A stretch of DNA of 64,000 nt, from the NCBI RefSeq assembly GCF_000278275.1, contig NZ_JH725147.1, forward strand, positions 1 to 64,000, written 5' to 3'. The notes under the pieces were generated by a model, which was not told the origin of the DNA, ran no database searches, and saw only the letters and a program-made list of their open reading frames with translations. Position numbers and translations under genes: made by a program. Origin of the DNA: Bartonella tamiae Th239. Lineage in GTDB: Bacteria; Pseudomonadota; Alphaproteobacteria; Rhizobiales; Rhizobiaceae. The stretch's first letter is position 1. Each line of letters starts with the position of its first letter. This document shows, piece after piece, positions 17,242-57,610 of the stretch.

Positions 17242-17320
<79 letters not shown>

Positions 17321-17341: not shown

Positions 17342-18370
17342 CTAAGAAGTTCTCTTTAGGTTCATTGAACCTCTACCAACTTCATGAAGATCTATTTCCA
17401 AAGCACTTGCAGCGTTGCGCAAATAGTCTGGTGAAAAGCGGGCGTAAACTTTCTCTGTAATGCTTGTACTAGAATGACCAAGATATTGGGCTATTTCACT
17501 CATACTAATTCCAGCCTCAGCCATCCATACAGCGGCGGTATGTCGGAATACATGAGGTGACACATCCTCCACACAGGCATTCTTAGCGGTAGTAGCTATA
17601 CCCTTTTTTATGCTCAACACCCGCTTACAATTCCATTCAATAACATAATCGCTTAAAGCCGCTTGTTTTGCCTCATATAGTGCAGCAAATAGCGTATTAT
17701 TTACTGGAACAACGGCACGACCTTTACGTCTGCCATTGTCATTTGGATTACACAAAACAATCCGACGCCTCTCAAAATCAACTCTATCCCATGTCAATTC
17801 TAATAAAGCAGATATACGCGCGGCTGTAGCAAGCATCAAATGGATTGCCAATTTGATATGCGGCATCGTGGCATTTTCAAGCAATTGTAATGCTTCTTCA
17901 TGTGTCAAATAACGATCTTTAGGCGCTGGTGCCTTTGGTAGCTCTATAAATGGGGCTTTTTCAATTATGCCATGCTTTGAAGCCCAGTTTAAAACTATGC
18001 GCAAATGGTTAAGCTCAGTGTGGATTGTCCCATCTGATTTGCCCTGTTTGCGTCTTTTTTCAATATAAGCGCGGGAATCAGACAAAACCAGAGATGATGC
18101 ATAACGTCCAGAAAAATGTTGCTCTAAAGCTTTCCACGACCATTGCATATTATTGGCAATAACGCGTCCTACTTTTTCTTTTCTATATGAAGAAAACAGT
18201 CCATCAATTAAATCATTATTTGTTCGCGTTAGCTCCGCATAGATTGCGGGAGCAATCTTTTCAGCTTCATGCCGGTCACTAGTGTTGAGACTGTATCGTT
18301 TGCGCTTTCCTCCATATTCGAAGGTAAGAGCCAGTTTTCCCCGTAATTTTGTAATTGTCCATTCTGGCAT
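17342..18370 (-). CDS. int: Tyrosine-recombinase integrase
   Basis: Site-specific recombinase, 342 aa, for insertion and excision at tRNA-Thr. It has an N-terminal arm-binding region (about 1-60), a SAM-like core-binding domain (about 65-150) and the catalytic domain, with Arg185 (AARISALLEL), His273 and Arg276 (HVFRHT), His299 (YLGHSS) and nucleophile Tyr309 (VYARF). Its stop lies 21 bp from attL. The first 142 nt overlap the Xis-like gene in another frame. It would be expressed from P_L at the end of the leftward operon. Confidence 0.95.
   Translation of the reverse strand: MPEWTITKLRGKLALTFEYGGKRKRYSLNTSDRHEAEKIAPAIYAELTRTNNDLIDGLFSSYRKEKVGRVIANNMQWSWKALEQHFSGRYASSLVLSDSRAYIEKRRKQGKSDGTIHTELNHLRIVLNWASKHGIIEKAPFIELPKAPAPKDRYLTHEEALQLLENATMPHIKLAIHLMLATAARISALLELTWDRVDFERRRIVLCNPNDNGRRKGRAVVPVNNTLFAALYEAKQAALSDYVIEWNCKRVLSIKKGIATTAKNACVEDVSPHVFRHTAAVWMAEAGISMSEIAQYLGHSSTSITEKVYARFSPDYLRNAASALEIDLHEVGRGSMNLKRTS
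17344..17372. repeat. Possible integrase arm-type site, left end
   Basis: AAGAAGTTCTCTTTAGGTTC followed by ATTGAACCT, including the palindrome AGGTTCA-T-TGAACCT. A near copy stands at 57438-57466 near attR. The left copy is inside the 3' end of int. Equivalent sites near both ends suggest binding by integrase or its accessory factor. Confidence 0.5.
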
Positions 18371-24860: not shown

Positions 24861-25517
24861 CTATATTGCATCACCAGACATAACTATATAATGCACCGAC
24901 ACAACACGCTCATGTGGAAATATTAGCTCCTTTTGTGGGTTAAATTGTTCAAGTACCAGTTCATTAGCGTTATGTTTGCAAAATCTTTTTACAAAAGCGT
25001 GTGGAGGTGAGTTTTCATCAATCATCACTTGCGCAACAACAAAATCGCCTTTTTTTGTTCTTCTTGTAGGGTCAACATAAACGACTTCACCATCAAAATA
25101 CCGTGGTGACATTGAATCGCCACTTACAACCACACCATATGAACCTGCAACGGCTTGCAACTGTGGAGGGCAAAGAATATCATAAAGTCTATTGCCATTT
25201 AAAACAAACTCCCCATCAATGCCACCAACGGCTTGTCCATATACTGGTATTTTCTTTGTTTGATCAAAATCTACAGAACCTATAATTCTTGCGTTTGACT
25301 GCGGTAATTTATTTAAACCGCCCACCAACAAATCAGAAACGTTTAATTCAAGAGCCTTAGCTAAGAGTGGCAACTTATCTTGTCGAAATGTTTTTTTTCT
25401 ATCCTCAAGATAATCACGTATATAACCACGCTCTAAGCCAACTTTTATGGCCGCTTCTATTGGGCTTATCTCAAGCTCATTTAATCTAGTTTTTATTATA
25501 TTTTTTAAGTTGTCCAT
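24861..25517 (-). CDS. S24-family phage repressor (CI-like)
   Basis: 218 aa; N-terminal helix-turn-helix (about 1-65, LNELEISPIEAAIKVGLERG) and C-terminal LexA/CI-type peptidase with Ser135 (VSGDSMSPRYFDG) and Lys177 (AFVKRF). A canonical Ala-Gly cleavage pair is not obvious; AVGG at 96-99 is a candidate. The open frame reaches 25589, but that would run through the operators. ATG 25517 fits the HTH start. Lacking a Shine-Dalgarno and with TATTAT six bases upstream, its mRNA may be leaderless. It maintains lysogeny and would be inactivated by RecA after DNA damage. Confidence 0.92.
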   Translation of the reverse strand: MDNLKNIIKTRLNELEISPIEAAIKVGLERGYIRDYLEDRKKTFRQDKLPLLAKALELNVSDLLVGGLNKLPQSNARIIGSVDFDQTKKIPVYGQAVGGIDGEFVLNGNRLYDILCPPQLQAVAGSYGVVVSGDSMSPRYFDGEVVYVDPTRRTKKGDFVVAQVMIDENSPPHAFVKRFCKHNANELVLEQFNPQKELIFPHERVVSVHYIVMSGDAI

Positions 25518-25523
25518 GTTTTT

Positions 25524-25604
25524 ATAATAAAATAATTTCAAATAATTCCAAAGTTGTAAATATCCTATTGAAAAGTTGTACGTTTCCAACTATTGTATCC
25601 AATT
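25524..25604. promoter_or_regulatory. Divergent P_R/P_RM region with repressor operators
   Basis: Rightward P_R: TTGAAA (25568-25573), 17 bp, TATTGT (25591-25596), with operator GTTGTACGTTTCCAAC (25575-25590) filling the spacer just as at P_L. A weaker operator, GTTGTAAATATCC plus TAT, is at 25553-25568. Leftward P_RM: TTGGAA (25551-25546), 16 bp, TATTAT (25529-25524), six bases before the repressor ATG. The predicted P_R start falls at or next to the ATG at 25605. Confidence 0.75.
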
Positions 25605-38472: not shown

Positions 38473-39134
38473 AAACCAAAGAAATTAACTTTCAAGTTAA
38501 AAATTTATCAGAAAATGGAACGTTTCAAGGATACGGTTCTATTTTTGATAATATTGATAGTTATGGTGAAGTTGTAAAAAATGGTGCATTTTCACAAAGC
38601 TTAAAAAAACATCAGGAAAAAGGAACGAATGTTGTCATGCTTTGGCAACACAACAGAGAAGAGCCGATTGGTGTTTGGAGCGAACTTCAAGAAGATCAAA
38701 AAGGCTTAATTGGTAAAGGTCATATAAATCTTGATGTTCAAAAAGGGCGTGAAGCTTATTCCTTAATGAAACAAGGCGCATTAACGGGTCTATCGATAGG
38801 TTATCAAGAACTCAAAGCCCATAATGATAATAATGTTCGTTTACTAACAGAACTTGATCTTTATGAAATATCTCCTGTCACTTTTGCGGCAAACAGTGAA
38901 GCACGCATTGAAAGTTTAAAATCAAAAAGATTTGAAGATTTCGCGCAAAATTTGCGTGATGGCAAACCAATGCCAATAAAAGATTTTGAGGATATCTTGC
39001 GTGAGGCAGGAATTCCAAAAAGCATGGCCACACAAATTGCCTCTGTTGGCTATGCAAAAGCTATTCGGAGCGAGTCTGATAGCAATAAGGCAAATGAAGC
39101 GACTGCGTTTTTAAACGCACTATGTGTCGATTAA
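38469..39134 (+). CDS. Prohead maturation protease (HK97 family)
   Basis: 221 aa; serine protease that trims the capsid scaffold domain. The core has GYGSIFDNIDSYGEVV, catalytic His61 in LWQHNREEPIG and Ser109 in LTGLSIGY, plus LYEISPVTFAANSEARI. A strong AGGAG precedes the ATG. Confidence 0.94.
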   Translation: MKTKEINFQVKNLSENGTFQGYGSIFDNIDSYGEVVKNGAFSQSLKKHQEKGTNVVMLWQHNREEPIGVWSELQEDQKGLIGKGHINLDVQKGREAYSLMKQGALTGLSIGYQELKAHNDNNVRLLTELDLYEISPVTFAANSEARIESLKSKRFEDFAQNLRDGKPMPIKDFEDILREAGIPKSMATQIASVGYAKAIRSESDSNKANEATAFLNALCVD

Positions 39135-39159
39135 CATTTCAAATTTAAGGATTCGCAAA

Positions 39160-40392
39160 ATGACGGATATTGAAACAAAAAGTGCAGAAACACTTGCACG
39201 TGAAGTCAAAGAAAGCTTTGATAAAAAACTTGATGCTGTCAAAGAGATTGCAGAAAAAGCAATTTACAGTGTTGAAGGTTTAACAAAGTCAGAAAAGGAA
39301 AAAGCTGATGAACAGCTTACTTTGATGAATGAGGCAAAATCGCGTTTAGATGAGATTGAGCAAAAATTGGCACGTTCACCTTCTCAAGAAATGTCTCAAA
39401 AAAGTTTAGGTGAACAGTTTGTTGAGAATGAAGAATTTAAAGCAATGGCAGCATCACCGAATATGAAATCAACATATTCTATGTCTGTTAAAGCTGATAT
39501 TACAAGCGTTAATGATGGTAATGCTGGGTCTGCTGGTGCTGCAATCGCACCTAATCGATTATCAGGTATTCAAACGCTTCCACAACAGCGTTTGACCATC
39601 AGAAATCTTTTGTCAGCAGGACGCACAAATTCTCCTCTTATTCAATATGTTCAAGAAACTGGTTTTACCAATTCTACAGCACCTGTCAAAGAGGGTGAGC
39701 TAAAACCACAATCTGATATAAAACTTGCTGATAAAGACGTTGGAACGAAAGTTATCGCGCATTGGATGCGTGCTACAAAACAGATTTTGTCTGATTTTCC
39801 ACAACTTCGATCTTTTATAGATGAACGCTTGATTTATGGTTTAAAGCTCGTTGAAGAAAAACAGCTTTTAAATGGTGATGGCACGGGCGAAAACCTTCAT
39901 GGTATCATTCCGCAAGCAACTCAATATAACGCGCCACAAGGATTAACATCACCGACACCTGTAACAGGTATTGATGTTTTGCGTATTGCCATGCTTCAAG
40001 CAGCACTTGCAGAATATCCAGCAACTGGTCATGTTCTTAACCCAATCGATTGGACGAGTATTGAACTCTTAAAGGATACGCAAGGTCGCTATATTATTGG
40101 CAATCCACAAGGCACGTTAAATCCAACATTGTGGAGTTTGCCAGTTGTGACGACACAAGCCATTGAGGTCAATAAGTTTTTGACGGGTGCTTTTGCACTT
40201 GGAGCGCAAATTTTTGATCAATGGAATAGTCGTATTGAGGTTGGTTTCCAAAATGATGACTTTACAAGAAACAAAGTAACAATTTTGGGGGAAGAACGGC
40301 TTGCTCTTGCGGTTTATCGACCAGAAGCATTTGTTTATGGTTCTATTACACCAACACAAAGTGAAGCGTCCAGTATAAATAAAAAATCCTAA
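39160..40392 (+). CDS. Major capsid protein (HK97 family)
   Basis: 410 aa from ATG 39160 (AAGGA upstream; the frame runs back to 39124). Residues 1-115 are a charged coiled-coil scaffold (Delta domain) to be removed by the protease, followed by the HK97 fold with TLPQQRLTIRNLLSAGRTNS, SDFPQLRSFIDERLIYGL, and NGDGTGENLHGIIPQA. It builds the icosahedral shell. A terminator directly follows, typical for the most abundant virion protein. Confidence 0.94.
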   Translation: MTDIETKSAETLAREVKESFDKKLDAVKEIAEKAIYSVEGLTKSEKEKADEQLTLMNEAKSRLDEIEQKLARSPSQEMSQKSLGEQFVENEEFKAMAASPNMKSTYSMSVKADITSVNDGNAGSAGAAIAPNRLSGIQTLPQQRLTIRNLLSAGRTNSPLIQYVQETGFTNSTAPVKEGELKPQSDIKLADKDVGTKVIAHWMRATKQILSDFPQLRSFIDERLIYGLKLVEEKQLLNGDGTGENLHGIIPQATQYNAPQGLTSPTPVTGIDVLRIAMLQAALAEYPATGHVLNPIDWTSIELLKDTQGRYIIGNPQGTLNPTLWSLPVVTTQAIEVNKFLTGAFALGAQIFDQWNSRIEVGFQNDDFTRNKVTILGEERLALAVYRPEAFVYGSITPTQSEASSINKKS

Positions 40393-40400
40393 TAGTGATT

Positions 40401-41389: not shown

Positions 41390-41394
41390 TAACA

Positions 41395-41990: not shown

Positions 41991-42082
41991 TTTTCTTCTC
42001 TACAGTCTTTAAAAAAGCGTGGAGTGCCTATTCTTTGAAACCCTTGGGCAAGGTTTAAATCTTAAAATAAGGAGCCTTTTTC

Positions 42083-42556: not shown

Positions 42557-42566
42557 AATACATAAA

Positions 42567-43157: not shown

Positions 43158-43180
43158 TTTTTATTAATAATTTTAAAAGC

Positions 43181-43741
43181 CTAATTCATTTGTAAATTTG
43201 TACCGCGCCACATGTCTTCTTCTGGAAGATATTTCATTAAAATAGTATAACTTGATTGAATACGCCCTCCAAAACTATTTGTTGCTGAAACATATCCAAA
43301 AACAGAGAATTGACAATTTTTTCTTTTGTCAACATGATAATTATTTGGAAATTTAGCGGAGCTTGGGTCTTTTAAAGAACGTTTTACAAAGGCCTTAGAC
43401 TTTATGTATGCGAAATCCTTATCATTGCACCATTTATCAGCTCTTTTTTTAAGCATATTTTCCTTTTCTTCTTTTGCTTTTTTTACAAGAAAGACTTCTC
43501 TTTTTTCATTCGTCCAATCATCTGCATTAATTATTCCAGCTTCTTTGGCGTTTCTTTTATCCGAAGCGTTTAAAAAACCTTCTGAAATAGCAGTTTTATC
43601 TGCTTCGCGACTACCCATTATCGCCATAACAAAACCAGCAATGATAAATATAAAAAAAAGCTTTCTATGACCTTTAATAAAAAGAAAGACAATTGCCAAA
43701 AGGCAGCAAATAAAAAAAGCAAATATATAGTAAATTTCCAT
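43181..43741 (-). CDS. Antisense membrane protein (moron) inside the tail module
   Basis: 186 aa from ATG 43741, with AGGA upstream. Two hydrophobic segments at about 3-23 and 28-45 (YYIFAFFICCLLAIVFLFI; LFFIFIIAGFVMAI), a charged helical middle, and a C-terminal domain with VKRSLKDPSSAKFPNNY and GYVSATNSFGG, a pattern shared by many small exported or membrane proteins of unknown role. It is read against the late operon, with a perfect TATAAT (minus 43766-43761) of its own, so it can be expressed in the lysogen. A surface or exclusion function is inferred. Confidence 0.75.
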   Translation of the reverse strand: MEIYYIFAFFICCLLAIVFLFIKGHRKLFFIFIIAGFVMAIMGSREADKTAISEGFLNASDKRNAKEAGIINADDWTNEKREVFLVKKAKEEKENMLKKRADKWCNDKDFAYIKSKAFVKRSLKDPSSAKFPNNYHVDKRKNCQFSVFGYVSATNSFGGRIQSSYTILMKYLPEEDMWRGTNLQMN

Positions 43742-43781
43742 AAAAAATCCTAATCTTTTAATTATAGAGTGATAAAGAAGT

Positions 43782-44120
43782 ATGTCCAAAGAAATGTCAA
43801 TAATAGAAAGCTTTGGAGATAAAGACTATATCTTCAAACTGAATTATAAAACGATGATAATCGTCCAAAATGAAATTGATGCTGGTCCATTGGTTATTTT
43901 AAAATCTATTCTCAATGGCACTTTTAAAGTTGAACATATTTCAACAATTTTACAATGGGCGCTTGTCGGTGGCGGTCTTACAGCAAATGAAGCTTTAAAA
44001 CTTGTTAAAATATACGTTCAAGATATGCCGATTAATGATAATCTTGAATTGGCGATGAAAATTATGTCAGCCGCTATTTATGGGCGTGAAGAAAATAGCA
44101 AATCCAATGAAAAGTCTTGA
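43782..44120 (+). CDS. Tail assembly chaperone (copy 2, N-terminal domain only)
   Basis: 112 aa, clearly paralogous to the first half of the protein at 42567 (FGDKDYIFKLNYKTMIIVQN, EIDAGPLVILKSILNGTFKV, ALVGGGLTANEALKLVKIYV). It lacks the second domain. The antisense membrane gene lies between the two copies. It could cover the tape measure alone, as in phages where the short form is the more abundant product. Confidence 0.82.
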   Translation: MSKEMSIIESFGDKDYIFKLNYKTMIIVQNEIDAGPLVILKSILNGTFKVEHISTILQWALVGGGLTANEALKLVKIYVQDMPINDNLELAMKIMSAAIYGREENSKSNEKS

Positions 44121-44122
44121 TT

Positions 44123-44539
44123 ATGCGTTATGTTATTGGATTGGAAAACATAGAAAAACGTCTTGAATTAATAAAAAAAGCGGCAAAAGAGAAAACAGCC
44201 CCTGTTATATTAGAAAGTGCCAATAAGATTGCCGACGATGCAAGATCACTCGTTCCAAATGATACAGGAAATTTAAAAGACAGTATACGTGTTGAACATG
44301 GTGATACACCTTTACAATATTTCGTGAAGGCTGGTGGTGAAGCCACAACACGACAAATTAGAAATGGTACAGATGCCACTTATGATTATGCTGCGGCCGT
44401 TGAATATGGAACCACAAAAAATGACGCTCAACCTTTTTTTTGGCCAGCCTACCGTCTGAATAAAAAGAAAGTCAGAGCGCGCATAAGAAGAAAAATATCA
44501 ACTGAAATTCGGAAGGCATGGAAAAATGTCACAGACTGA
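44123..44539 (+). CDS. HK97 gp10-family head-tail protein
   Basis: 138 aa from ATG 44123. ANKIADDARSLVPNDTGNLK, DSIRVEHGD, and AAAVEYGTTKNDAQPFFWPA are standard for the HK97-gp10 family. It is normally placed before the tail terminator gene; here it lies after the chaperones and directly before the tape measure, a rearranged position. Confidence 0.88.
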   Translation: MRYVIGLENIEKRLELIKKAAKEKTAPVILESANKIADDARSLVPNDTGNLKDSIRVEHGDTPLQYFVKAGGEATTRQIRNGTDATYDYAAAVEYGTTKNDAQPFFWPAYRLNKKKVRARIRRKISTEIRKAWKNVTD

Positions 44540-47120
44540 TGATGCAAGATTAGCGGTTTTGCTTGAAGCGCGTCTTAATGATTTTGAACGTTCTTTAAAT
44601 CGTGCGCAAAAGACATTTGCTAGTCGTGCATCTTCGATGGAGAAAACAGCAGAACGTACAAGAAAAAAGATAGAAGGCACGTTTTCTGGTCTAGGAAATA
44701 ATTTATTATCCACTGTATCAAGATTTGCGTTACCTATTATTGGCATCGGTTCTATCGCTGGACTTACAAAATATGCAGATACTTGGAGTGATTTAAACGC
44801 GCGACTTGCAAATAGTACAGGTTCAACAGAAGCGGCTGCAGCAACAATGCAACGTTTAAGTGATGTTGCTGATCGCACCTATTCAAGTCTTGAAACAACT
44901 GTCAATAGTTTCATTGAAAATTCACGCGCTTTAAAAGATTTAGGACTTAATACAAAGCAACAGCTTGATTATACGGAAGCTTTAAATAACGCGCTTGTTG
45001 TTAGTGCGGCAAGAGGTGAACGAGCAAGAGCCGTACAAAACGCACTTTCAAAAGCAATGGCGGCAGGACGTCTATCAGGTCAAAATTTAAATACTGTGAT
45101 ACAATCTGGCGGTCGTGTTGCAGAAGTCCTTGCAGATGAAATGGGGGTAACAGTTTCTCAACTTGCTGTATTAGGTCGGCAAGGAAAAATTACTGGCGAC
45201 GTTATTTTTTCTGCACTGATAAAAAACATGGCAAAGTTGAGGGAAGAAGCTGAAAATATGCCTTCAACCATTGAGGATGGCTTCCAAAGACTTGGAAATG
45301 CACTGTTAAAATTTGTTGGTAGTCTTGATCAAGCAACAGGTATTACGGGTGCTGTTGCAAATGGGCTTATCTTTATTAGTGAAAATATGGGCGCTATTGC
45401 GACGGGGGCGGCCGCTGCCGCTGTTGTTTTATTAAGTACGAATACAGCCTATATTTCAAGTCTTAAAAGAGTTATTGCAACTCAAGTCGCCGCTATTGCT
45501 ACTAATCCCTATCTCTTAATTGCCGCAGCAATAGGCACAGCTGTTACGGCTTTGGTTGCTTTTTCAGATGAAATTAAACCTATAAAAGGTGAAATGGGAA
45601 CATTAAGCGATTATTCAGCAGTGATTTGGGATGACATTAAAACACAAGTTGGTGAGGCGTGGAAAGTTATTTCAGATTTGACACATAAATTAATAGATAT
45701 GATTACACAAGGTTTAGAAGGAATGGGACTTTCTTGGGAAGATGTTATGAAAGGTATTAAAAAATATTATAATACAATAATCGGTTTATTTCTTGGAATG
45801 GCCAAGGGATTTATAACAACATTTACAAAACTTCCTCAAGCGATAGCTGATGGTGTTATCTCATCAATGAACCGCATGATACAGTTGGTTGAAGATGGTT
45901 TAAATTCAATTATTCGCGCGACCAATAAAGCCATAAGTGCAATTAACAATATATCTGGTGTTGTTGGTGTGGAAGTTGGGGTAATTGCCGAAATAAACTT
46001 ACAAAAATTAGAAAATCGATTTGCAGGTGCAGGGAGAAGAGCTGCGGAAGCCTATCAAGATGCTTTTAATCAACTTAACCGTGATTTTATTGGTGACTCT
46101 GATTGGATAGATCATACTAGAAGAAGAGCAAATGAAAGGGCAGAAGCAAGAAATAAAAAATTAGAAGAGGAACAAGCCAAGGCTTCCCTATCTAAAAATT
46201 CATCTGGTGGTCAATCGACTATAAGTGATTTAGACAAAGAGATTGCAAAAATCAAAGAACACACAAAAGCTTTGCAAGATCAAGCTAAAATACAGGCGCA
46301 AATTGACCCATTAGCAAATGACTATGAATATACATTAACCAAGCTTACAACCATACAACAACTTTATAATGCAGCAACCAAAGCAGGCTTAACAGTAACG
46401 CCAGAAATGGCACAAAGCTTTGAGGTTTTAGCAGAAAAAGCAGCTCAAGCTGAAGTGGAAGTTAATAAGATTAAAGCAGCTCAAGATGAGCTTGTTAAAA
46501 AAATAGCCGAAGTCAAAGATATTTCACGAGATATGACAAGAACATTTATTGATGGAATGATTGACGGTAAATCGGCTACAGAAGCTTTGGGTGATGCTGT
46601 TTTAAGACTTGGACAACGATTGCTTGATGCTGGTTTGGATAGTATTTTTGACACCATTTTTCAATCGGCAGGCGGTAGAAAAGGTGGTGGTTTTCTTTCA
46701 GGCATTCTGGGCTTTGATAAAGGTGGCTATACTGGTGACGGTGGCAAATATCAACCTGCAGGAATTGTTCATAAGGGTGAAGTCGTTTGGTCGCAAAGCG
46801 ATGTTAAAAAATGGGGTGGTGCAAGAGCTGTTGATGCGATGCGCCGTGGTTATGCTCATGGAGGAATAGCAGGAATGCCTTCAAGAATGGCTATTCCAAA
46901 TATTCCGTCACCTTCATTTTTAAGAACAATGAGCCAAGACACACAAAGAGCGATAAAGGTTGATGTAACGCCCTCGCCTTATTTCGATGTCAAGGTAAGT
47001 GAAATATCAGATCAACGCATTCGATCAGCCGCACCAACAATTATTAATCAATCTGTGTCGCAATCTGATCGAAAATTTGCACAAAATTATCAAGATTCTT
47101 TAGACAGAAGTATTTTATAA
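44526..47120 (+). CDS. Tail tape measure protein
   Basis: 864 aa. N-terminal tape-measure domain (about 60-260, with ALNNALVVSAARGERARAVQ, LSKAMAAGRLSGQNLNTVIQ), hydrophobic segments at about 270-345 and 415-455, a long coiled coil, then GGRKGGGFLSGILGFDKGGY followed by TGDGGKYQPAGIVHKGEVVW, a common C-terminal feature. Its length fixes tail length and it may help DNA entry. Confidence 0.93.
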   Translation: MSQTDDARLAVLLEARLNDFERSLNRAQKTFASRASSMEKTAERTRKKIEGTFSGLGNNLLSTVSRFALPIIGIGSIAGLTKYADTWSDLNARLANSTGSTEAAAATMQRLSDVADRTYSSLETTVNSFIENSRALKDLGLNTKQQLDYTEALNNALVVSAARGERARAVQNALSKAMAAGRLSGQNLNTVIQSGGRVAEVLADEMGVTVSQLAVLGRQGKITGDVIFSALIKNMAKLREEAENMPSTIEDGFQRLGNALLKFVGSLDQATGITGAVANGLIFISENMGAIATGAAAAAVVLLSTNTAYISSLKRVIATQVAAIATNPYLLIAAAIGTAVTALVAFSDEIKPIKGEMGTLSDYSAVIWDDIKTQVGEAWKVISDLTHKLIDMITQGLEGMGLSWEDVMKGIKKYYNTIIGLFLGMAKGFITTFTKLPQAIADGVISSMNRMIQLVEDGLNSIIRATNKAISAINNISGVVGVEVGVIAEINLQKLENRFAGAGRRAAEAYQDAFNQLNRDFIGDSDWIDHTRRRANERAEARNKKLEEEQAKASLSKNSSGGQSTISDLDKEIAKIKEHTKALQDQAKIQAQIDPLANDYEYTLTKLTTIQQLYNAATKAGLTVTPEMAQSFEVLAEKAAQAEVEVNKIKAAQDELVKKIAEVKDISRDMTRTFIDGMIDGKSATEALGDAVLRLGQRLLDAGLDSIFDTIFQSAGGRKGGGFLSGILGFDKGGYTGDGGKYQPAGIVHKGEVVWSQSDVKKWGGARAVDAMRRGYAHGGIAGMPSRMAIPNIPSPSFLRTMSQDTQRAIKVDVTPSPYFDVKVSEISDQRIRSAAPTIINQSVSQSDRKFAQNYQDSLDRSIL

Positions 47121-47139
47121 AGTTGCGGATTTATTTGAT

Positions 47140-47739
47140 ATGATAACATTACCAAAAATTGATTATAGTTTTAGTCATTTTGAAATACAAAGATATGTGT
47201 CGCAATCTCAAAGTAATAGCGGACTGATAAATATTTATGAATATTCAGACCCTCGTTGGAAAGTAACTCTGACAACACGACCATTAAGATATTCAGATGG
47301 ACAAATGATTGATGCTTGGTTCCAATCTTTGCGAGGTGGCGTAAAACCTGTTCTTTTGAGTTCACCGCATTATTGCCAACCGCGCGCACATATTGGCAAT
47401 AATGGTGCAGAAAAACAAAATGGCACCTTGATTGCAATTGAAAATAAAACCAAACTTACAATTGGGGGTAGCAACTCTTCACTACAACTATCAGCTGGTG
47501 ATTATGTTTCATTTTCATACAACACTACGCATGCATTAGGAATGGTTTTAGATGCATCAAGAAATAACGCAAATATTATTGTAAATATCGAACCATCTTT
47601 ACCTGATTATATAAAAACTGGTGCGACAGTTTATTTTGATCGTGCGGAAATTTTAACGCGTCCGATATGGGAAGATTATGAAAAATGGACATGGGAAAAT
47701 CGGAGTGTTACTTTTAGTTTTATGGAGAGTTGGAAATGA
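47140..47739 (+). CDS. Distal tail protein (DUF2460-like)
   Basis: 199 aa, beta-rich. The middle shows DGQMIDAWFQSLRGGVKPVL and ALGMVLDASRNNANIIVNIE; the end is RPIWEDYEKWTWENRSVTFS. It sits between tape measure and DUF2163 as does the distal tail protein in gene-transfer-agent-like tails. Family assignment is tentative. Confidence 0.65.
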   Translation: MITLPKIDYSFSHFEIQRYVSQSQSNSGLINIYEYSDPRWKVTLTTRPLRYSDGQMIDAWFQSLRGGVKPVLLSSPHYCQPRAHIGNNGAEKQNGTLIAIENKTKLTIGGSNSSLQLSAGDYVSFSYNTTHALGMVLDASRNNANIIVNIEPSLPDYIKTGATVYFDRAEILTRPIWEDYEKWTWENRSVTFSFMESWK

Positions 47740-48311
47740 GATCACTTAGCCAACGAACCATAGACTTATTAAACCAAGGAAGAATGAAAGGTGCAGAACT
47801 TTTACGATTTGATTTTGCAAGTGGTACTTATGGTTTTTGGACTGGAAAATCAGAATTTGAATATAATGGATTAAATTATTTGCCAGGTGGCATATTGTCT
47901 ATAAGCTCAATTCCAGGACAATGGGGTTATAATGCTCAAGGACTGACGATTGAGTTGGCATCAAGCCCAAATGATGGCTTAACACCTGAAGTTCTAGCGA
48001 CGATGGATAATGAAATTTGGCATCAGCGTCCTGTAACTATTTATGAAGCTTTTTTTGATCCCGACAGTTATGAATTACTATTTGTTGAACCTCTTTATCG
48101 CGGTCTTTTAGATACATTAGAGTTTCAAGATGGTTCAGAAACAAAACTTATTGCGACATGCGAAAGCCGCGCCTTAGACAATAGCCGTGAAGGCTATAGA
48201 ATGCGCTCAATGAACGATCAACATCTTATTAATTCTGGTGATAATTTTTATTCTTTTGCAGAGTCGACAGGCAAAACCGTTGTTCCATGGGGGCAAAACA
48301 GACAAGCTTAA
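47736..48311 (+). CDS. DUF2163 tail protein
   Basis: 191 aa from the ATG at 47736. GFWTGKSEFEYNGLNYLPGG, IPGQWGYNAQGLTIELAS and RGLLDTLEFQDGSETKLI are characteristic of the DUF2163/BR0599 family found in rhizobial phages and in gene transfer agents as a baseplate hub component. Normally followed immediately by the NlpC-like peptidase gene; here a porin gene intervenes. Confidence 0.85.
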   Translation: MRSLSQRTIDLLNQGRMKGAELLRFDFASGTYGFWTGKSEFEYNGLNYLPGGILSISSIPGQWGYNAQGLTIELASSPNDGLTPEVLATMDNEIWHQRPVTIYEAFFDPDSYELLFVEPLYRGLLDTLEFQDGSETKLIATCESRALDNSREGYRMRSMNDQHLINSGDNFYSFAESTGKTVVPWGQNRQA

Positions 48312-48374
48312 TATGACTTGACTTTCATTACATTGTAAGCTTTTCATAAGAAAATTTTTTTGAGGGAAAATTTC

Positions 48375-49139
48375 ATGCGCCGCATTCTTTTTGGATCTAT
48401 TGCCAGTTTTCTTATTTCTAGTCCAACATTTGCTGATGAGAATTATTCATGGGCTGGTTTTTATATTGGTGGTCAAGCTGGATGGATGCAAAATGATGTG
48501 AAATATAGTCAAAACGCACCTTTTGCCCTCAATATATTAAATGATTACACAGGTGAAAGATATGCAGAATATACACCTCTGCCTATGAATAATGAGAAAA
48601 AGAATAGTTTTTCTGGTGGTGTTTATGCTGGATATAATTTTATGCTTAGTAAGCATTTTTTATTAGGAGCAGAGGCCGATATAGCATTATATAATTATAA
48701 AAATAATGATAATTTATACATAGATAATATATATCCTTATAATTATAGTCTTAAAAAATTCTATCTTTATGAAGAAAAAGTAAAATTATCACGTTCAGTC
48801 TCTTTAAGAGCGCGTATTGGATACGCCTCTAGTCGGTTTTTAACCTTTGCAACTGCTGGTATATCATCAGGAACAGCAGACTATAATATACATATTGACG
48901 GCGCTCAAACTTCTAAAGAGGTATATGCGTCAAATAGAAAATCAATGACAGGCTACACTGTTGGTGGTGGTGTAGAATATGCATTAACAGATCATATTCT
49001 TTTGCGTTCTGAATACCGTTACACAGACTATGGTCGAAAAGGAATTAAAATTGATGGCGATCAATTTATAACTCCTGCTGAATTTAAAATTGCTCACAAA
49101 GCGCACGATGTGCGTCTTGGTATCGCCTATAAGTTTTAA
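48375..49139 (+). CDS. Outer membrane beta-barrel protein (Omp31/hemin-binding type) carried by the prophage
   Basis: 254 aa from the ATG at 48375 (GAGG upstream). A signal peptide (RRILFGSIASFLISSPTFA) is followed by the family start YSWAGFYIGGQAGWM, alternating strands, GVEYALTDHILLRSEYRYTD and the C-terminal ending RLGIAYKF with terminal Phe needed for barrel insertion. Rhizobial and Bartonella Omp31/Hbp proteins share this layout and some bind haem. It interrupts the tail module and ends with its own strong terminator, typical of a moron altering the lysogen's surface. Confidence 0.88.
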   Translation: MRRILFGSIASFLISSPTFADENYSWAGFYIGGQAGWMQNDVKYSQNAPFALNILNDYTGERYAEYTPLPMNNEKKNSFSGGVYAGYNFMLSKHFLLGAEADIALYNYKNNDNLYIDNIYPYNYSLKKFYLYEEKVKLSRSVSLRARIGYASSRFLTFATAGISSGTADYNIHIDGAQTSKEVYASNRKSMTGYTVGGGVEYALTDHILLRSEYRYTDYGRKGIKIDGDQFITPAEFKIAHKAHDVRLGIAYKF

Positions 49140-49162
49140 AATAGATTTATCATTAAAAACAT

Positions 49163-49189
49163 AAGAGAGCATTGGCTCTTTTTTTTTTT
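49163..49189 (+). terminator. Terminator of the porin moron
   Basis: AAGAGAGC-ATTG-GCTCTTTT hairpin followed by a T run. It isolates the porin gene from the following tail genes. Confidence 0.85.
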
Positions 49190-49203
49190 ACAAAGGATAT
49201 ATT

Positions 49204-49617
49204 ATGCGTTTATGGAACCGAGCCGATGGCTGGGCGGTGGCGCTTGGCTGTGTTGTAGAAAAACACAATGAATTGCCTTTTCAATATGGCGTTTCCGATT
49301 GTGGTCAATTTGCGGCTGATGCAATTGAAGCAGTTATAGGCAAAGATATATTAAAGCCTTATCGCCTTTACAGAACAAAAATCGGTGCCGCGAGGGTTCT
49401 TAGAAAATCAGGCTTTTTAAATCTTGGTGCACTTTTTGCCAAACATTTTAAAGAGGGTAGCCTTTCTCTCGCAATGCGCGGTGATATTGGTGTTGTCGAT
49501 TATCAAGGCGAATTATGTGCAGGTGTTTTTACAGGTACAGGATTTGCCTGCAAAGGTGAAAATGGCATTATATTTGCTGATTATAGCCAGATAGAACGTG
49601 TTTTTGAGGTAGGATAA
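49204..49617 (+). CDS. NlpC/P60-like tail peptidase (DUF6950-like)
   Basis: 137 aa. The cysteine segment FQYGVSDCGQFAADAIEAVI with the later GDIGVVDYQGELCAGVFTG fits the papain-like peptidase fold of tail proteins that degrade cell wall on infection. A classical second catalytic His is not obvious, so activity is not certain. Next to the J-like protein as expected. Confidence 0.78.
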   Translation: MRLWNRADGWAVALGCVVEKHNELPFQYGVSDCGQFAADAIEAVIGKDILKPYRLYRTKIGAARVLRKSGFLNLGALFAKHFKEGSLSLAMRGDIGVVDYQGELCAGVFTGTGFACKGENGIIFADYSQIERVFEVG

Positions 49618-52247
49618 TGGCTTTTATTGCACCTATTATTGGCGCGGTTGCTTCTGCCTTTGCTGGTATCAGTTCTTTTATCGGAAGTCTCGGTTGGGTT
49701 GGAAAGCTAGGCATCGGTATTGGCCTGCAACTTATTGGAAATTCCATTAAAAAGAAAAAAAAGAAAGGAACGGTACAAAGACAAGCAGAAATAAGCGGAA
49801 CACGTTTAAATGTGTCATATGGTGGTGCGCAACAGCGTGAAATCGGTGTTGGTTTATTTGCAACCGCTGGGCAAGAAATTTTCACTTGTGCTTTTGGTGA
49901 AGCCAATAAAACTCTTGCAAGAGTTATTCAACTTTCAGATTTTCCAATTACTGGCGTTACTAGAATTTTAATTGAAGATGAATGGTGTTTTTTAAATGGT
50001 GATAATCAGTCTGAACGCGGTTATACGATAACAGGAAAATATAACGCTTTTATCCGTGTTAAAATATTTAATGGACTGCAAAATCTTGCCGATAATTATC
50101 TTATTCAAAGCTCTGGTGGACAATGGACAAGTGGTCATGTTGGCACAGGTTTAAGTTATGCCATTATTTATATTGATTTTGACCAAAATGAAATGACCAA
50201 TCCGCCTCAAATGCTTTTTGAGTGCCAAGGGCGGTGTTATGATCCAAGGTTTGATAGCACATATGGCGGTAATGGTTCACAAAGATTTTATGATGTTTCG
50301 ACATGGCGATATTCTGATAATCCTATTGTGCAAGCATATAATTATGAACGTGGTTTTTATCTCAATAATGAGCTGATTGTTGGCAAAGGGATGCCCGTTT
50401 CTGACCTTCCTATCTTAAAATGGGTGGAAGCGATGAATTTATGCGATGAGTTGGTTGCCAATAATGAAAAGCTTTATCGATCGGGTATGATTTTCGTTGC
50501 TGGCAATGGTGTCAAACATACTGATAATCTTGAACCTATTATGAATGCCTGTGCTGGCGCCTTAGTAGAGCGTGTGGACGGTGATGTTCCTTTGGTTGGT
50601 GTTACACAGCCAATTGTTGCAACACTGACGGATAAAGATTTAATCACACAATCATCTTTAATTTATCGTCCTAAAAGAACACGTTCAGAATTACGCAATA
50701 CAATAACGGGAAGTTATAACGAGCCAGAAAAAGGATGGGAATCTGTTTCTTATCTCACACAAAGTGATGTCAATGCTATAGCGGCGGATGGAGAAAGGCG
50801 CGCAGAGCAGATTGATTTTAGTGCTGTTTTTAATGCTAACCAAGCAGCAAGGCTTGCATTATCAGGATTAAAAGAAAATCGCTATCAAAAAAGTTATACG
50901 ATGGTTGTCCAACCAAGTTGGATAATATTGGAAATTGGCGATTGGATACGGTTTAATCATCGACGTTATGGTTCTGGAATTTATCGTGTGGTCGGCAGAA
51001 CATTAGCCGCACATGATGAAAATGGTGCAAGAAATGTGACGCTCAACCTACAAGAGGTTGGCGCTGGAATGTATGATGAAAATGTCATTGTGCCAGAATT
51101 ACCAACGAATAAACCAGCACCACAGCCAGTATATCAAAACTTTCCAGATCAATTCAGCGTTTTTGCTTCTCAAGCACGTTCCGAAAATGAACAAAGAAAA
51201 ATCCCTGTTTTTGATCTTTCTTGGCGTATGCCGACCGATGTGACGGTTACAGGTATAAAGATTGAATATTGGCAAACAACCGATCCAATCAATAAGCTTA
51301 CGCATATTCTTTTAGGTACACAAACAGCTGTTCGGCTTGCAGGTTTTGCACCACTTACAAAATATAGTTTTCGTGCTACGGTTATCCCAGACCCTGCTAG
51401 ACCAACCTTATGGTCACAAGAAGTGATTGTAGAATCTGCCGATGAAGAATTTGAAATTGATACCGAAGAAATTGCAAATATTGTTTCTGTTGGCAATGAA
51501 TGGGGATTTGCCAATTTAAATGCAACCCAAGATCGGCTTGATTATCTTGCTTCAATTGTTGCTGATGGCGCGGCTTCTGGTTTTTTAAAAAGTAAAGAAA
51601 TACGTCGCGACATTAGTGTTCAAATCGAGCAAAATGATGCCTCTTATCGTGAGCAAATCACAGTTGCAATTGATGAAAATAAAGCCCTTGCATCAAGAAT
51701 TGAAGTGGTTGAGGTCACCGTTAATGAAAATCTCGCACAAGCGTTTCAAGAACTCCGCGCTGAAATTGATGAAGCTGGTAGGGTTACAGCAGAATCTATC
51801 ACGGCATTAAATACACAGGTTGGTGAACTTTCAAGCAATGTCACAATGCGCGCGCAATCCGTAACAAGTGCAGAAGAAAATTGGGCGAGATTTGTTTTAC
51901 AATTAAGAACAAGCGATCAAGATGTATGGCGCAATGCATCTTTAATTATGGAAACCAATCAATCAAGAGGTAGGTTTTTCTTTGCTGCTGATGATTTTTA
52001 TTTCACAAGTCCGAATGGTCGTTATCAACCCGTATCAATCGTTAATGGTGTTTTGCGCTCTAATGCGGCTGATATTGGAACGGTAACGGCAGGTTCTATT
52101 AATATCAATAACCGATTTCGGGTCGATAGAAATGGCACGATTGAAATTGTTGGGGCATCGGGCGTTCAACGACTTGTTATCACCAATAGCCGCATTGAAG
52201 TTTTTGATAATAATAACCGCTTACGCGTACAATTAGGGATATGGTAA
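49617..52247 (+). CDS. Tail tip host-specificity protein (J-like)
   Basis: 876 aa. A hydrophobic start (about 1-45), the baseplate hub region with ISGTRLNVSYGGAQQREIGV and YDVSTWRYSDNPIVQAY, a fibronectin-like domain (about 515-600, FDLSWRMPTDVTVTGIKIEY), then a helical stretch (KEIRRDISVQIEQNDASYRE) and a Gly-poor C-terminal beta region probably exposed to the cell receptor. The last base of its stop codon TAA is the first base of the following ATG. It determines host binding. Confidence 0.93.
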   Translation: MAFIAPIIGAVASAFAGISSFIGSLGWVGKLGIGIGLQLIGNSIKKKKKKGTVQRQAEISGTRLNVSYGGAQQREIGVGLFATAGQEIFTCAFGEANKTLARVIQLSDFPITGVTRILIEDEWCFLNGDNQSERGYTITGKYNAFIRVKIFNGLQNLADNYLIQSSGGQWTSGHVGTGLSYAIIYIDFDQNEMTNPPQMLFECQGRCYDPRFDSTYGGNGSQRFYDVSTWRYSDNPIVQAYNYERGFYLNNELIVGKGMPVSDLPILKWVEAMNLCDELVANNEKLYRSGMIFVAGNGVKHTDNLEPIMNACAGALVERVDGDVPLVGVTQPIVATLTDKDLITQSSLIYRPKRTRSELRNTITGSYNEPEKGWESVSYLTQSDVNAIAADGERRAEQIDFSAVFNANQAARLALSGLKENRYQKSYTMVVQPSWIILEIGDWIRFNHRRYGSGIYRVVGRTLAAHDENGARNVTLNLQEVGAGMYDENVIVPELPTNKPAPQPVYQNFPDQFSVFASQARSENEQRKIPVFDLSWRMPTDVTVTGIKIEYWQTTDPINKLTHILLGTQTAVRLAGFAPLTKYSFRATVIPDPARPTLWSQEVIVESADEEFEIDTEEIANIVSVGNEWGFANLNATQDRLDYLASIVADGAASGFLKSKEIRRDISVQIEQNDASYREQITVAIDENKALASRIEVVEVTVNENLAQAFQELRAEIDEAGRVTAESITALNTQVGELSSNVTMRAQSVTSAEENWARFVLQLRTSDQDVWRNASLIMETNQSRGRFFFAADDFYFTSPNGRYQPVSIVNGVLRSNAADIGTVTAGSININNRFRVDRNGTIEIVGASGVQRLVITNSRIEVFDNNNRLRVQLGIW

Positions 52248-52573
52248 TGGCACAAGGTTTGAGAATTTGGGATGAACATGGCAATTTAACCGTTGATTCA
52301 GATTTTCGTATGTCGCGAACATTAGGTCAAATTTATATTAATCAAATAAACGATGGAATAATTAATGTTCCTCAATTTAATCAAGGAACACCTTGGTTTT
52401 ATGCCGTGGTTGATTGGTCAAATATATTTTATGATAATAGCGCAAGTGATCGCCAAGAAAATACCATAACAATATCAAGTGATAATTATAATATTCAATG
52501 GATATGGTATCATCCAAGACTAGATAAACGAGGATATTATCGAGCCGCTTGGGTTATTTACGGAGTGTATTAA
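52247..52573 (+). CDS. Tail tip accessory protein 1
   Basis: 108 aa, ATG sharing a base with the previous stop (TAATG). The start GLRIWDEHGNLTVDSDFRMS is shared in pattern with the next protein (GVRIFNDANTIQIDDSYQ), as in small fibre or DUF6453-like tail proteins. Beta-rich; probably a fibre attachment or adhesin component. It ends in a stop that overlaps the next start. Confidence 0.65.
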   Translation: MAQGLRIWDEHGNLTVDSDFRMSRTLGQIYINQINDGIINVPQFNQGTPWFYAVVDWSNIFYDNSASDRQENTITISSDNYNIQWIWYHPRLDKRGYYRAAWVIYGVY

Positions 52574-53328
52574 TGGCTGCTGGTGTAAGAATTTTTAATG
52601 ATGCTAACACTATTCAAATTGATGATAGCTATCAAAATTTAGTTATGATTAAATCAGGTGAATTGATTACCGATTGGAGGGGTATGGCAGAACTTCACAT
52701 AGAGCATGATGGGCCTTTAATTTTAGCAACAAGTTGTTCTAATGGTTCTTCATGTTCAGTCCAAGACAGAACTGGGCTAACTTGGCATTATTTGATAGGT
52801 TCTGCACCTGCAAATGCTTATGTCAAATGGTATGCGTTTTCCAATCCATTAAATCCTCAATTTAATTTTGGTCTTCGTGTATTTGATGCCAATGGTAGAA
52901 TTACATTTGATTCAAATCAAAAACCTTTGGTTATTTCGTATTTTTTTAGTATAGATACACCTCTGTTAGATCAAATTTCTTTAAATGATATTGATGGTTT
53001 GCCTAAAGAAGATGAAGTCGCAAGACCTCAAAATATTTACGTTCCTTTAAGACAAGGTCGAACTTACACAGCTTTTCCTATTAAATATGTTGGTGCTGTT
53101 TCTGTCGTTTATCAAAGTAGAACGGCTAGCGGTGGTAAAAAAATATCTTATGATCACTATTGTTATATGCCTTTTACGAGTGTTGGAGGCATAACTTTTG
53201 TACCTATTAAAGAGGTGACAAATAGTCCTTCTAGAATACCAGAAATGAGACCATTTTATAGACCTAGAGGAAGTCCATGGCGGGATAGAGTTCAACAATA
53301 TTGGGTCATTGACGTAACAGGTTATTAA
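52573..53328 (+). CDS. Tail tip accessory protein 2
   Basis: 251 aa (ATG 52573). N-terminal strand-turn motif as in its neighbour, then a beta-rich body with ILATSCSNGSSCSVQDRTGL, VKWYAFSNPLNPQFNFGLRV and VFDANGRITFDSNQ. Probably a receptor-binding or fibre-tip protein of the same family; a fold cannot be assigned with confidence. Confidence 0.65.
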   Translation: MAAGVRIFNDANTIQIDDSYQNLVMIKSGELITDWRGMAELHIEHDGPLILATSCSNGSSCSVQDRTGLTWHYLIGSAPANAYVKWYAFSNPLNPQFNFGLRVFDANGRITFDSNQKPLVISYFFSIDTPLLDQISLNDIDGLPKEDEVARPQNIYVPLRQGRTYTAFPIKYVGAVSVVYQSRTASGGKKISYDHYCYMPFTSVGGITFVPIKEVTNSPSRIPEMRPFYRPRGSPWRDRVQQYWVIDVTGY

Positions 53329-53389
53329 TTCATCGAAACATTGCATTTGTCATTCTGCTAATAATCGTATTTGCGGAGAAAGGAAAATT

Positions 53390-53569
53390 ATGTCTGAAAA
53401 AATTGATATATCCCACGCTGTTGCCTTTGCAGAAGCCACTGCAGAATCTGACTTTTGGAGAAAACGCGCGCTTATTAACGCCGCCTTACGTGATAAAGCC
53501 GAGCAGCAAATAGCAGATATGCAAAAAGAAATTGCTAAGTTGAAAGGCAATAAAAATGACAATAAATGA
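53390..53569 (+). CDS. Small coiled-coil phage protein
   Basis: 59 aa, with GGAGAAAGG before the ATG. A helical, heptad-like chain (HAVAFAEATAESDFWRKRAL, AEQQIADMQKEIAKLKG). It overlaps the tail fibre gene by 14 nt. Function unknown; small helical proteins here may help fibre folding or trimerisation. Confidence 0.7.
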   Translation: MSEKIDISHAVAFAEATAESDFWRKRALINAALRDKAEQQIADMQKEIAKLKGNKNDNK

Positions 53570-54599
53570 ATGGGTGCCTATGGATACGGATGACTATACT
53601 GTTGGTACAGTCACGCTTACCGCAGGGTCATCTGATATTGTTTTTAATAATGCTTTTAATGGTGCAGAAGCTTCATTTTATGCAGGCGACAGTATTTATA
53701 TACCAACGGTAGGAAAATGGCTTTTATTGGCTTCAATAGGCAGTCGAACAATAGGCACATTGCTTTATCCATGCCCTTCAGACTGCGCAGGAACATTTAA
53801 CCTTCGTTTGCGACCACTTGCGCGTAATGCAAGACAAGCAGGATTGGCGACTTTGGTCTTGCGCAATTTGCAAACGGGAAACTTACCAAGCCTTGCTGAT
53901 GTAAAAGCTGAAAAAGGGCAAATTTTACAGGCAGGAGAGGTTCAAGGCGAATGGAATGCGGTTAATTTTGATGTTTTAACATATATGAAAAAAGAAATCT
54001 ATGATCCGAATGAAGTCGCATCCGATGCATTTTCAATGGGTAATATGGTTGAAACAGACACAGCAAAAATTTTAAGCTCTAGCGAAAGAGAAATTTTAAA
54101 CAATTTAGAACAAACATTAAATCGTTTACGCATACCAGTTGGTCTTGAATCTTATATAGATTCTGAACTTCCACCAGATGGTTGGTTGGCGGCTAATGGG
54201 AATAGATATAATATATCCGCTTATCCTGATCTCGCAAAATTTTGTGGTGTAAAATACGGTGGAGATGGAATAACAACCTTCGCAGTGCCAGACCGTCGTG
54301 GTCTTTTTATACGTGGGTGGGATAATGGAAGAGGCATTGATACAGGTCGTCAGTTGGGTAGTGATCAAGGTGATGCAATAAGAAACATTACTGGTTCGGT
54401 TAATGATGATTCTATGGGGTATTTAGGACGAGGGTCAGGTGCCATTAACTCTCATAATAAAGCAAATACAAGTCCAGGTGGTACTTGGTCAACATCGGGT
54501 CGTCAATTTGGTTTTTCATTTGATGCATCACGCGTAGTACCAACAGCGCCTGAAAATCGTCCGCGTAACGTTGCTCTTCTTCCAATCATTAAATATTGA
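53556..54599 (+). CDS. Tail fibre with collar domain
   Basis: 347 aa. An N-terminal beta region (about 1-130) is followed by the phage Tail Collar domain (about 190-260, SYIDSELPPDGWLAANGNRY, GDGITTFAVPDRRGLFIRGW) and a Ser/Gly-rich tip ending in RPRNVALLPIIKY, the closing motif of collar fibres. Receptor contact is likely through the tip. The last 4 bases overlap the next frame. Confidence 0.88.
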   Translation: MTINEWVPMDTDDYTVGTVTLTAGSSDIVFNNAFNGAEASFYAGDSIYIPTVGKWLLLASIGSRTIGTLLYPCPSDCAGTFNLRLRPLARNARQAGLATLVLRNLQTGNLPSLADVKAEKGQILQAGEVQGEWNAVNFDVLTYMKKEIYDPNEVASDAFSMGNMVETDTAKILSSSEREILNNLEQTLNRLRIPVGLESYIDSELPPDGWLAANGNRYNISAYPDLAKFCGVKYGGDGITTFAVPDRRGLFIRGWDNGRGIDTGRQLGSDQGDAIRNITGSVNDDSMGYLGRGSGAINSHNKANTSPGGTWSTSGRQFGFSFDASRVVPTAPENRPRNVALLPIIKY

Positions 54600-54607
54600 G
54601 GTTTATT

Positions 54608-55342: not shown

Positions 55343-55366
55343 ATAACAAAATATAGTAAAAAATAC

Positions 55367-55390
55367 ACCGCCCCAAAGGCGGTTTTTTTT
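55367..55390 (+). terminator. Terminator between tail and lysis modules
   Basis: ACCGCC-CCAAA-GGCGGT stem-loop followed by seven T residues; a strong factor-independent terminator after the fibre-associated gene. Confidence 0.9.
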
Positions 55391-55409
55391 ATGCCCGAAA
55401 GGAAAACCA

Positions 55410-56075
55410 ATGACACGTAAAATCAATCAAACAGGTCTTGACCATATCAAACAATGGGAAGGCTTGCGTTTAAACGCCTATCGCGATGTCGCAGGTGTTT
55501 GGACAATTGGTTATGGACACACAGCCGCTGCTGGTGAACCAAAACCAAAAGCTGGCATGAAGATGAGTGAAAAAGAAGCAGAAACTATTTTGATCCAAGA
55601 TTTGACACAATATGAGCAAACAGTCGAAAATGCTGTCACTGTAACACTCAACGATCATCAATTTGCCACTCTTGTTTCCTTTACCTATAATGTTGGTATC
55701 GGTGCTTTTAGGCGCTCAACATTGTTGAAAAAACTCAATAAAGGCGACTATGATGCTGTGCCTTCAGAATTGATGAAATGGGTCAATGCTGGCGGGCGTA
55801 AAATTAAAGGCTTGGTGAATCGTCGTCGTGCAGAAGGCGCATTATGGATTAAGGGCGATTTTGTCTCTTCCAATTATATCACGCCAGAAACGGATCAAAG
55901 CCATGTAGTTTTAAAACCAGAAGTGGTTGCTCCTCTTCTTGGTGCGGCGTCTGGATTAACGGGTTTTGCAACAGGGCATGGTCCATTCCAATGGGCACTT
56001 GCTGGCGTTATGGTCATCGGCGCATGTGTTGGTGTTTTCCATTTTGTCAAACGTATGAAAAATGCAACGCAATAG
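55410..56075 (+). CDS. Endolysin, GH24 lysozyme with C-terminal membrane segment
   Basis: 221 aa. The T4-type catalytic triad is spaced correctly: Glu17 (QWEGL), Asp26 (AYRDVAG) and Thr32 (VWTIGYGHT). It hydrolyses the MurNAc-GlcNAc bond. Beyond the lysozyme domain (1-150) is a tail with a hydrophobic helix at about 191-213 (FQWALAGVMVIGACVGVF) followed by basic residues. No N-terminal signal or SAR helix is visible, so the C-terminal anchor may tether the enzyme to the inner membrane. Followed by spanins and holin. Confidence 0.9.
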   Translation: MTRKINQTGLDHIKQWEGLRLNAYRDVAGVWTIGYGHTAAAGEPKPKAGMKMSEKEAETILIQDLTQYEQTVENAVTVTLNDHQFATLVSFTYNVGIGAFRRSTLLKKLNKGDYDAVPSELMKWVNAGGRKIKGLVNRRRAEGALWIKGDFVSSNYITPETDQSHVVLKPEVVAPLLGAASGLTGFATGHGPFQWALAGVMVIGACVGVFHFVKRMKNATQ

Positions 56076-56077
56076 AC

Positions 56078-57561: not shown

Positions 57562-57610
57562 TTGGTAAGGGAGAGGTCGAGAGTTCAATCCTCTCTCGCA
57601 GCACCATAAA
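57562..57610 (+). repeat. Prophage attachment site attR
   Basis: Exact 49-bp copy of 17272-17320. It is the original host 3' end of tRNA-Thr displaced to the right by integration; no tRNA 5' half precedes it. Confidence 0.95.

Follow-up and report, generated by a model that had tools for sequence, protein, structure and literature searches.

Two tail genes of a prophage in the genome of Bartonella tamiae Th239 are separated by an outer-membrane beta-barrel gene that is probably a lysogenic-conversion moron, Lom-like in its action and drawn from the Hbp/Pap31 barrel family of Bartonella. The window that we analysed is the stretch of 64,000 nucleotides at positions 1 to 64,000 of contig NZ_JH725147.1. 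Gene order in related phages, a predicted structure, two phylogenetic trees and the sequences flanking the gene were compared, and coordinates are collected in Table 1.

Results

The barrel gene lies between tail genes of a tRNA-Thr prophage

As a preliminary description of this DNA had claimed, the barrel gene is prophage-encoded: it is surrounded by phage genes within a 40.3-kb element that sits in tRNA-Thr of the 2.25-Mb genome, has an integrase and is bounded by an exact 49-nt direct repeat. Besides the genes in Table 1, the prophage encodes a terminase, a portal, a tail collar fibre and a holin-like gene, and IMG/VR contains the same prophage (L126). The tail gene upstream of the barrel scores 23.1 bits against PF09931 (DUF2163), which is under the cut-off of 26. 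Elsewhere in the prophage, two pairs of direct repeats (30866-31165/33781-34080 and 31271-31421/34186-34336; 80% and 74% identical, both with a spacing of 2915 nt) mark a duplicated stretch immediately ahead of the terminase genes, in which a small HTH_3 ORF is accompanied by a divergent HNH ORF; the ORFs of the second copy were judged by eye.

Table 1. Features of the prophage and of the barrel cassette, in order of position in the window
Feature	Coordinates	Strand	Basis
Attachment-site repeat, left copy (3' part of tRNA-Thr)	17272..17320	.	exact 49-nt repeat; tRNA-Thr 17242-17316
Phage integrase beside tRNA	17342..18370	-	PF00589 E 6.1e-24
CI-like repressor	24861..25589	-	phrog_4 E 1.3e-28
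Major capsid protein	39124..40392	+	PF05065 E 2.4e-50
Second opposite-strand insert in tail module	43181..43789	-	ORF list; similarity to L044 165-aa ORF
Tape measure protein	44526..47120	+	TMP_3 E 1.4e-55
DUF2163-type tail protein, upstream neighbour of barrel gene	47730..48311	+	phrog_2048 E 4.1e-37
CTTGAC, possible -35 of cassette promoter	48317..48322	+	read from sequence; no consensus -10
Outer-membrane 8-stranded beta-barrel gene	48375..49139	+	OMP_b-brl E 1.9e-15; AlphaFold2 model with 8 long strands
Intrinsic terminator of cassette	49163..49182	+	8 pairs (3 G-C), then T run
DUF6950 tail-module protein, downstream neighbour of barrel gene	49204..49617	+	PF22262 E 7.6e-37
Central tail protein (Phage-tail_3)	49617..52247	+	PF13550 E 6.2e-13
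Phage lysozyme, end of late region	55410..56075	+	PF00959 E 1.2e-50
Attachment-site repeat, right copy	57562..57610	.	exact 49-nt direct repeat of left copy

The same description had given the gene a signal peptide, a terminal phenylalanine and a terminator of its own, and these three elements were all recovered. The N-terminus (MRRILFGSIASFLISSPTFA/DENYSW) is signal-peptide-like as judged by inspection alone, the complete ORF of 254 aa ends in ...IAYKF, and the hairpin that follows it is treated below. We take the ATG at 48375 as the probable start codon, given a Shine-Dalgarno-like GAGGG (48362-48366) 8 nt 5' of it; the TTG at 48360, which the ORF program had chosen, was judged less likely. 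Pfam OMP_b-brl matches residues 9-254 with 57.9 bits against a cut-off of 28.7, and a Pfam scan at E 0.1 returned OMP_b-brl, OmpA_membrane, Porin_2, DUF3575 and Opacity and nothing else, while a PHROGs search of the protein gave no match. The GC content of the gene is 0.337 compared with a prophage mean of 0.375, and the other late genes listed range from 0.318 to 0.434, several being equally low.

In the window, 892 nt separate the DUF2163 and DUF6950 genes, compared with at most 139 nt in all seven relatives in which both genes are readable, in agreement with the earlier statement that the barrel gene splits DUF2163 from its usual neighbour. The gap measures 139, 35, 53 and 9 nt in four Bartonella loci (L041, L042, L047 and L046, respectively), tblastn matches to the two genes lie 24 nt apart in a fifth (L045), and the gap is 7 nt and 3 nt in the Sinorhizobium phages HMSP1-Susan and phi2LM21, where the DUF6950 profile was confirmed (E 1.2e-32 and E 7.7e-25). 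DUF2163 was matched in three phages, namely these two, in which gene order was compared, and Roseobacter phage CRP-6. Within the genus, the DUF2163 gene was detected at E 1e-5 in 5 of 71 genomes, at seven places including the window; L043 falls outside the adjacency count, as its contig ends before DUF6950. When viral contigs were scanned with the DUF2163 protein, the sole match was the prophage itself. Among the window, five Bartonella relatives and two Sinorhizobium phages, the barrel stands between DUF2163 and DUF6950 in the window only, and comparison of gene order indicates that it is an insert between genes that are adjacent in relatives.

The predicted protein is an eight-stranded barrel with divergent loops

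The AlphaFold2 model of the barrel has a mean pLDDT of 74.8, with 101 of 254 residues at 90 or above and low values in the loops. Its top structural neighbours are OmpA (Z 18.1, rmsd 2.4, 168 residues) and NspA (Z 17.8, rmsd 2.7, 151 residues); Ail of Y. pestis (3qra; Z 14.4, rmsd 3.2, 151 residues) also aligns with it, and Opa60 matches by sequence profile (E 1.1e-6). According to this model, the protein is predicted to be an eight-stranded barrel of the OmpA/NspA/Opa-like type. A general diffusion porin, with its 16-18 strands, was rejected on the same eight long strands, so that the word "porin" in the preliminary description survives as a family name only and not in the sense of a pore.

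The window barrel and its nearest homologue have the same residue at 90 of 167 strand and turn positions (54%), compared with 7 of 57 loop positions (12%). The dN/dS ratio between two phage copies from another genome of the genus (G005, contigs C23 and C48) is 0.18/0.56 = 0.32, indicating purifying selection between these copies; it says little for the window copy, since the nearest relative of the latter is 43% identical, with a dS of about 1.7. Reading frames are intact in all four distinct phage barrel copies that are uncut by a contig end.

Related prophages carry barrel homologues at other sites

On G005 contigs C23 and C48, the barrel homologue is opposite in strand to the tail genes and comes after two ORFs 3' of the central tail gene, with the C23 copy preceding a fibre gene. 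Transcription from the late promoter would not be expected to cover copies in this orientation. Another homologue in G005 (contig C35, L044), the best match outside the window (43%, E 7e-56), is the immediate 5' neighbour of the tape measure gene and is flanked on its far side by a divergent ORF of 165 aa. The same pair of barrel and 165-aa ORF, cut by the contig end, is present in genome G017 (contig C106, L048), and the two barrels are near-identical (98.7% over 227 aa). In G058 and G105, the tail module is without a barrel, and each has two barrel genes far from the tail module. Within one phage family, the barrel thus occupies three different positions, and the tail module of two members lacks it; its presence at other tail-module sites indicates that the cassette was gained or moved more than once.

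In the G105 prophage, an RNase_T exonuclease gene (L046, 2023-2877) stands before the tape measure gene instead of the barrel, so the site before the tape measure looks like an insertion hot spot. In the window, the opposite-strand ORF at 43181-43789 lies between two small tail genes (42528-43157 and 43782-44120) that are alike by eye, and its C-terminal part resembles the 165-aa ORF of L044 and L048 (37% over 51 aa, E 3e-6). On the basis of this shared stretch, these phages may carry a second family of morons, of which the ORF would be a member.

The prophage barrels fall outside the chromosomal clade

Matches to the barrel at 1e-6 were obtained in 85 of 101 genomes, and the host's own intact barrel (C1:752835-753488) shares 38% identity with residues 16-254 of the window barrel (E 7.7e-33). 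We built one tree of 71 rows picked from 157 profile hits and a second of 77 rows, for which 6 long or odd rows were dropped and 12 added (10 order-level rows and 2 Ochrobactrum plasmid copies). Bartonella barrels from outside these phages, together with the host's intact copy, form one clade from which the phage barrels are excluded (100/99 and 100/98); "chromosomal" is our own label for these Bartonella rows, given without a scan of their flanks for phage genes. The window barrel and the C35/G017 barrels form a clade of their own (100/98 in both trees), and support for a single clade that unites the five Bartonella phage barrels is weak (95/53 and 89/29). We rejected a recent origin of the window barrel from the host's own copy on the 38% identity and the position outside the chromosomal clade. 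The preliminary description had placed the protein with Omp31/hemin-binding barrels; its homology to the chromosomal barrels of Bartonella is upheld, whereas the trees set it outside their clade and the upstream element described below is absent from it. We do not claim that the phage lineage predates the Bartonella-Brucellaceae split, because a tree that groups phage and chromosomal barrels of Bartonella together passes the AU test (p 0.43, not rejected) and because both trees contain long branches that meet. The second chromosomal barrel of the host (G000:C1:692907-693542, L003) is broken by two in-frame TAA stops, whereas the prophage barrel is intact.

Outside Bartonella, gene 27 of Agrobacterium phage Rivra alone matched the window barrel in INPHARED (1 of 50,697 phage records at E 0.01). 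Barrels on IMG/VR contigs group with the two Ochrobactrum plasmid copies (100/97 in the 77-row tree), and a portal homologue lies downstream of the barrel in L128, L129, L130, L133 and L134. In L129, L133 and L134, the barrel comes right after a Prim-Pol gene and before head genes, and the same primase-barrel order is seen in L158 (NZ_CP022602), a 19.7-kb Ochrobactrum plasmid. The barrels of L127 and L131 are away from recognised head genes and may lie in host flank; L137 is a weak barrel match among viral contigs, and the gene-neighbourhood drawing of these contigs left out L135 and L136. Several mobile elements, phage contigs and an Ochrobactrum plasmid among them, thus transport a host-type barrel that has the upstream element.

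Flanking elements of the barrel gene

A TTACTACAGACATT-like element, mostly some 50-85 nt before the start of the barrel ORF, is present upstream of 31 of 49 chromosomal barrel rows at 11 or more of 14 letters, as it is in 7 of 8 IMG/VR rows at this threshold and at the host's own intact copy (13/14). None of five prophage rows reaches 11/14 (best 9/14, as in shuffles), and 18 of the 49 chromosomal rows also fall short. The prophage rows come down to four distinct ones, L048 being close to L044, and the upstream stretch of L041 is truncated where its contig ends; if the true rate were 31/49, four misses would be expected about 2 times in 100. The element was spotted by eye and scored afterwards, with the 14-mer taken from viral rows, so that this comparison is post hoc. 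At thresholds of at least 10, 11 and 12 letters, 42, 31 and 20 of the 49 chromosomal rows are retained, and 22%, 2.6% and 0.1% of shuffled chromosomal upstream stretches reach 10, 11 and 12/14, which makes 10 too lenient a threshold. When a fuller pattern was searched in the host genome with up to 2 mismatches, it occurred once, before the intact chromosomal copy, compared with 4 matches in the reversed control, so no wider regulon is seen in this genome. By this scoring, the prophage barrel copies appear to be cut off from an upstream element that is common to many of their chromosomal relatives. Irr is described as acting through a promoter "H-box" in Bartonella (PMC4102455).

No consensus promoter was found in a scan of the 63-nt leader (48312-48374), and since the gene is co-directional with the late genes, late-only expression is possible for the window copy. 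The terminator that follows the gene folds at -11.1 kcal/mol (z -3.14), with 1 of 200 shuffles as good. By our own rule (a stem of at least 7 pairs and a T run), 5.5% of 200 shuffles of the stretch also contain a site, so the terminator alone is just moderately improbable. In 11 of 13 loci tested, or 10 of 12 when the host's own chromosomal copy is set aside, the barrel gene is followed by a terminator whose stem has 7 pairs or more; the C23 and C48 copies have none by this rule. Over both strands of the late region (36500-56400), we counted 34 terminator-like sites versus 15.1 in shuffles. Such sites are therefore common in this region, and the presence of one does not set the barrel gene apart.

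Discussion

We favour, with reasonable confidence, the reading of the barrel gene as a lysogenic-conversion moron. The leader, the signal-peptide-bearing eight-stranded barrel and the terminator would make up a one-gene cassette between two tail genes, with a promoter of its own from which it would be read when the late genes are off. The protein would then reach the outer membrane via Sec and BAM, where its phage-specific loops may change what antibodies, host tissue or other phages meet on the lysogen. That the barrel brings a benefit is an inference on our part.

The surface change could serve against other phages, if a lysogen-made barrel masks or replaces a host barrel that related phages use as receptor. 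Loops that diverge far more than strands, a barrel of the same type as the host's intact copy and the diverged barrel versions carried by several distinct phages of one family would all suit superinfection exclusion. However, a host barrel is no more than a putative receptor of this phage family, and loop divergence would be given equally by antigenic drift or plain lack of constraint. In a term search of a review on superinfection exclusion, "Lom" and "porin" were absent and neither of the two passages that mention the outer membrane concerned a phage-made barrel (PMC11436027). We see superinfection exclusion as possible but rather doubtful. The barrel might instead bind or store haem, acting as an Hbp carried by the phage that increases haem in the vicinity of the cell or protects against oxidation in the manner of the B. 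henselae Hbps, for which haem binding in vitro is described (PMC3799009, PMC3483173). The link to haem binding in the preliminary description is borne out as far as membership of the Bartonella barrel family goes, but the phage lineage stands outside the chromosomal clade, the upstream element is missing in 5 of 5 prophage rows as against its presence in 31 of 49 chromosomal ones, and the loops are not common to the window barrel and its nearest homologue. A haem-related role seems unlikely to us.

We give similarly little credence to a passenger gene, captured by chance, short-lived and of no benefit. Phage gene content is fluid, and the tail modules of the G058 and G105 prophages do without a barrel, yet frames have stayed intact in four distinct uncut phage copies, the dN/dS ratio between two of them is 0.32, and the phage barrels are a diverged lineage rather than fresh host copies. 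Least probable is that the barrel is made with the tail genes for a late phage function, such as a lysis aid or a virion part: in the window it does run in the direction of the late genes, but the signal-peptide-like start, the opposite orientation in C23 and C48 and the existence of other phages in which the same tail genes have no barrel between them speak against it.

The best-known outer-membrane barrels made by phages are those of lambdoid phages, and the moron that we propose shares with lambda Lom (Ail/Lom) that it is a prophage-encoded eight-stranded outer-membrane barrel. It differs from Lom in lying between DUF2163 and DUF6950 genes, whereas the lom gene has its place after gene J, and in belonging to another sequence family, as no Ail/Lom model appeared in the Pfam scan of the window barrel and its closest solved folds are OmpA and NspA. 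In a phi24B lysogen, Lom is reported to reside in the outer membrane and to be expressed whether or not the prophage is induced (PMC3342100). To Hbp/Pap31 (HbpA) and the Omp25/Omp31-type proteins of Bartonella, the window barrel is homologous over nearly its full length, but it differs from them in being in an integrated prophage, outside the chromosomal clade and without the upstream element. Hbp, Omp25 and Omp31 are names that we presume to apply to the barrel rows, as no curated model matched bears them. The IMG/VR barrels (L128-L134) and Rivra gene 27 are likewise phage-borne, of the same broad family and followed by a terminator in 8 of 8 loci tested (L127 and L131 counted). Unlike the window barrel, those of IMG/VR come after a Prim-Pol gene in three contigs, have a portal homologue following in five, keep the upstream element in 7 of 8 and group with Ochrobactrum plasmid copies; the element is absent at the Rivra barrel.

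The titles and opening abstract lines of the open-access literature searched on phage- or prophage-encoded outer membrane proteins and on Bartonella prophages mention no such gene, and "outer membrane" and "porin" are absent from the main text of a survey of bee-gut prophages (PMC10259446). The pap31 gene has been called "heme-binding phage-associated" in print (PMC3367652), and in BFVD a Pap31 fragment (Q68NH8), retrieved by structural search (E 3.9e-4), is filed under "Bartonella phage CO-04-1". By analogy with B. grahamii particles, which are described as packaging host DNA (PMC3610622), the Pap31-associated particles may simply package host DNA, and the window gene is for this reason a firmer case of a phage-encoded member. 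We also consider, as a rather doubtful speculation, that the phage family keeps an old Pap31-type lineage as an exchangeable cassette, moved among at least three tail-module sites, which, without the host element and with phage-specific loops, would re-coat the lysogen and shut out competing phages. If true, this would provide a real genetic footing for the old "phage-associated" name of Pap31.

Bartonella would thus employ a second barrel family in a Lom-like way, with genes placed at several sites and loops that diverge. These barrels make it possible to test cleanly whether hosts, immunity or rival phages are the target of such morons, and, since Pap31 is a haem-binding surface protein that was named "phage-associated", the finding of a relative that is truly prophage-encoded bears on an old puzzle.
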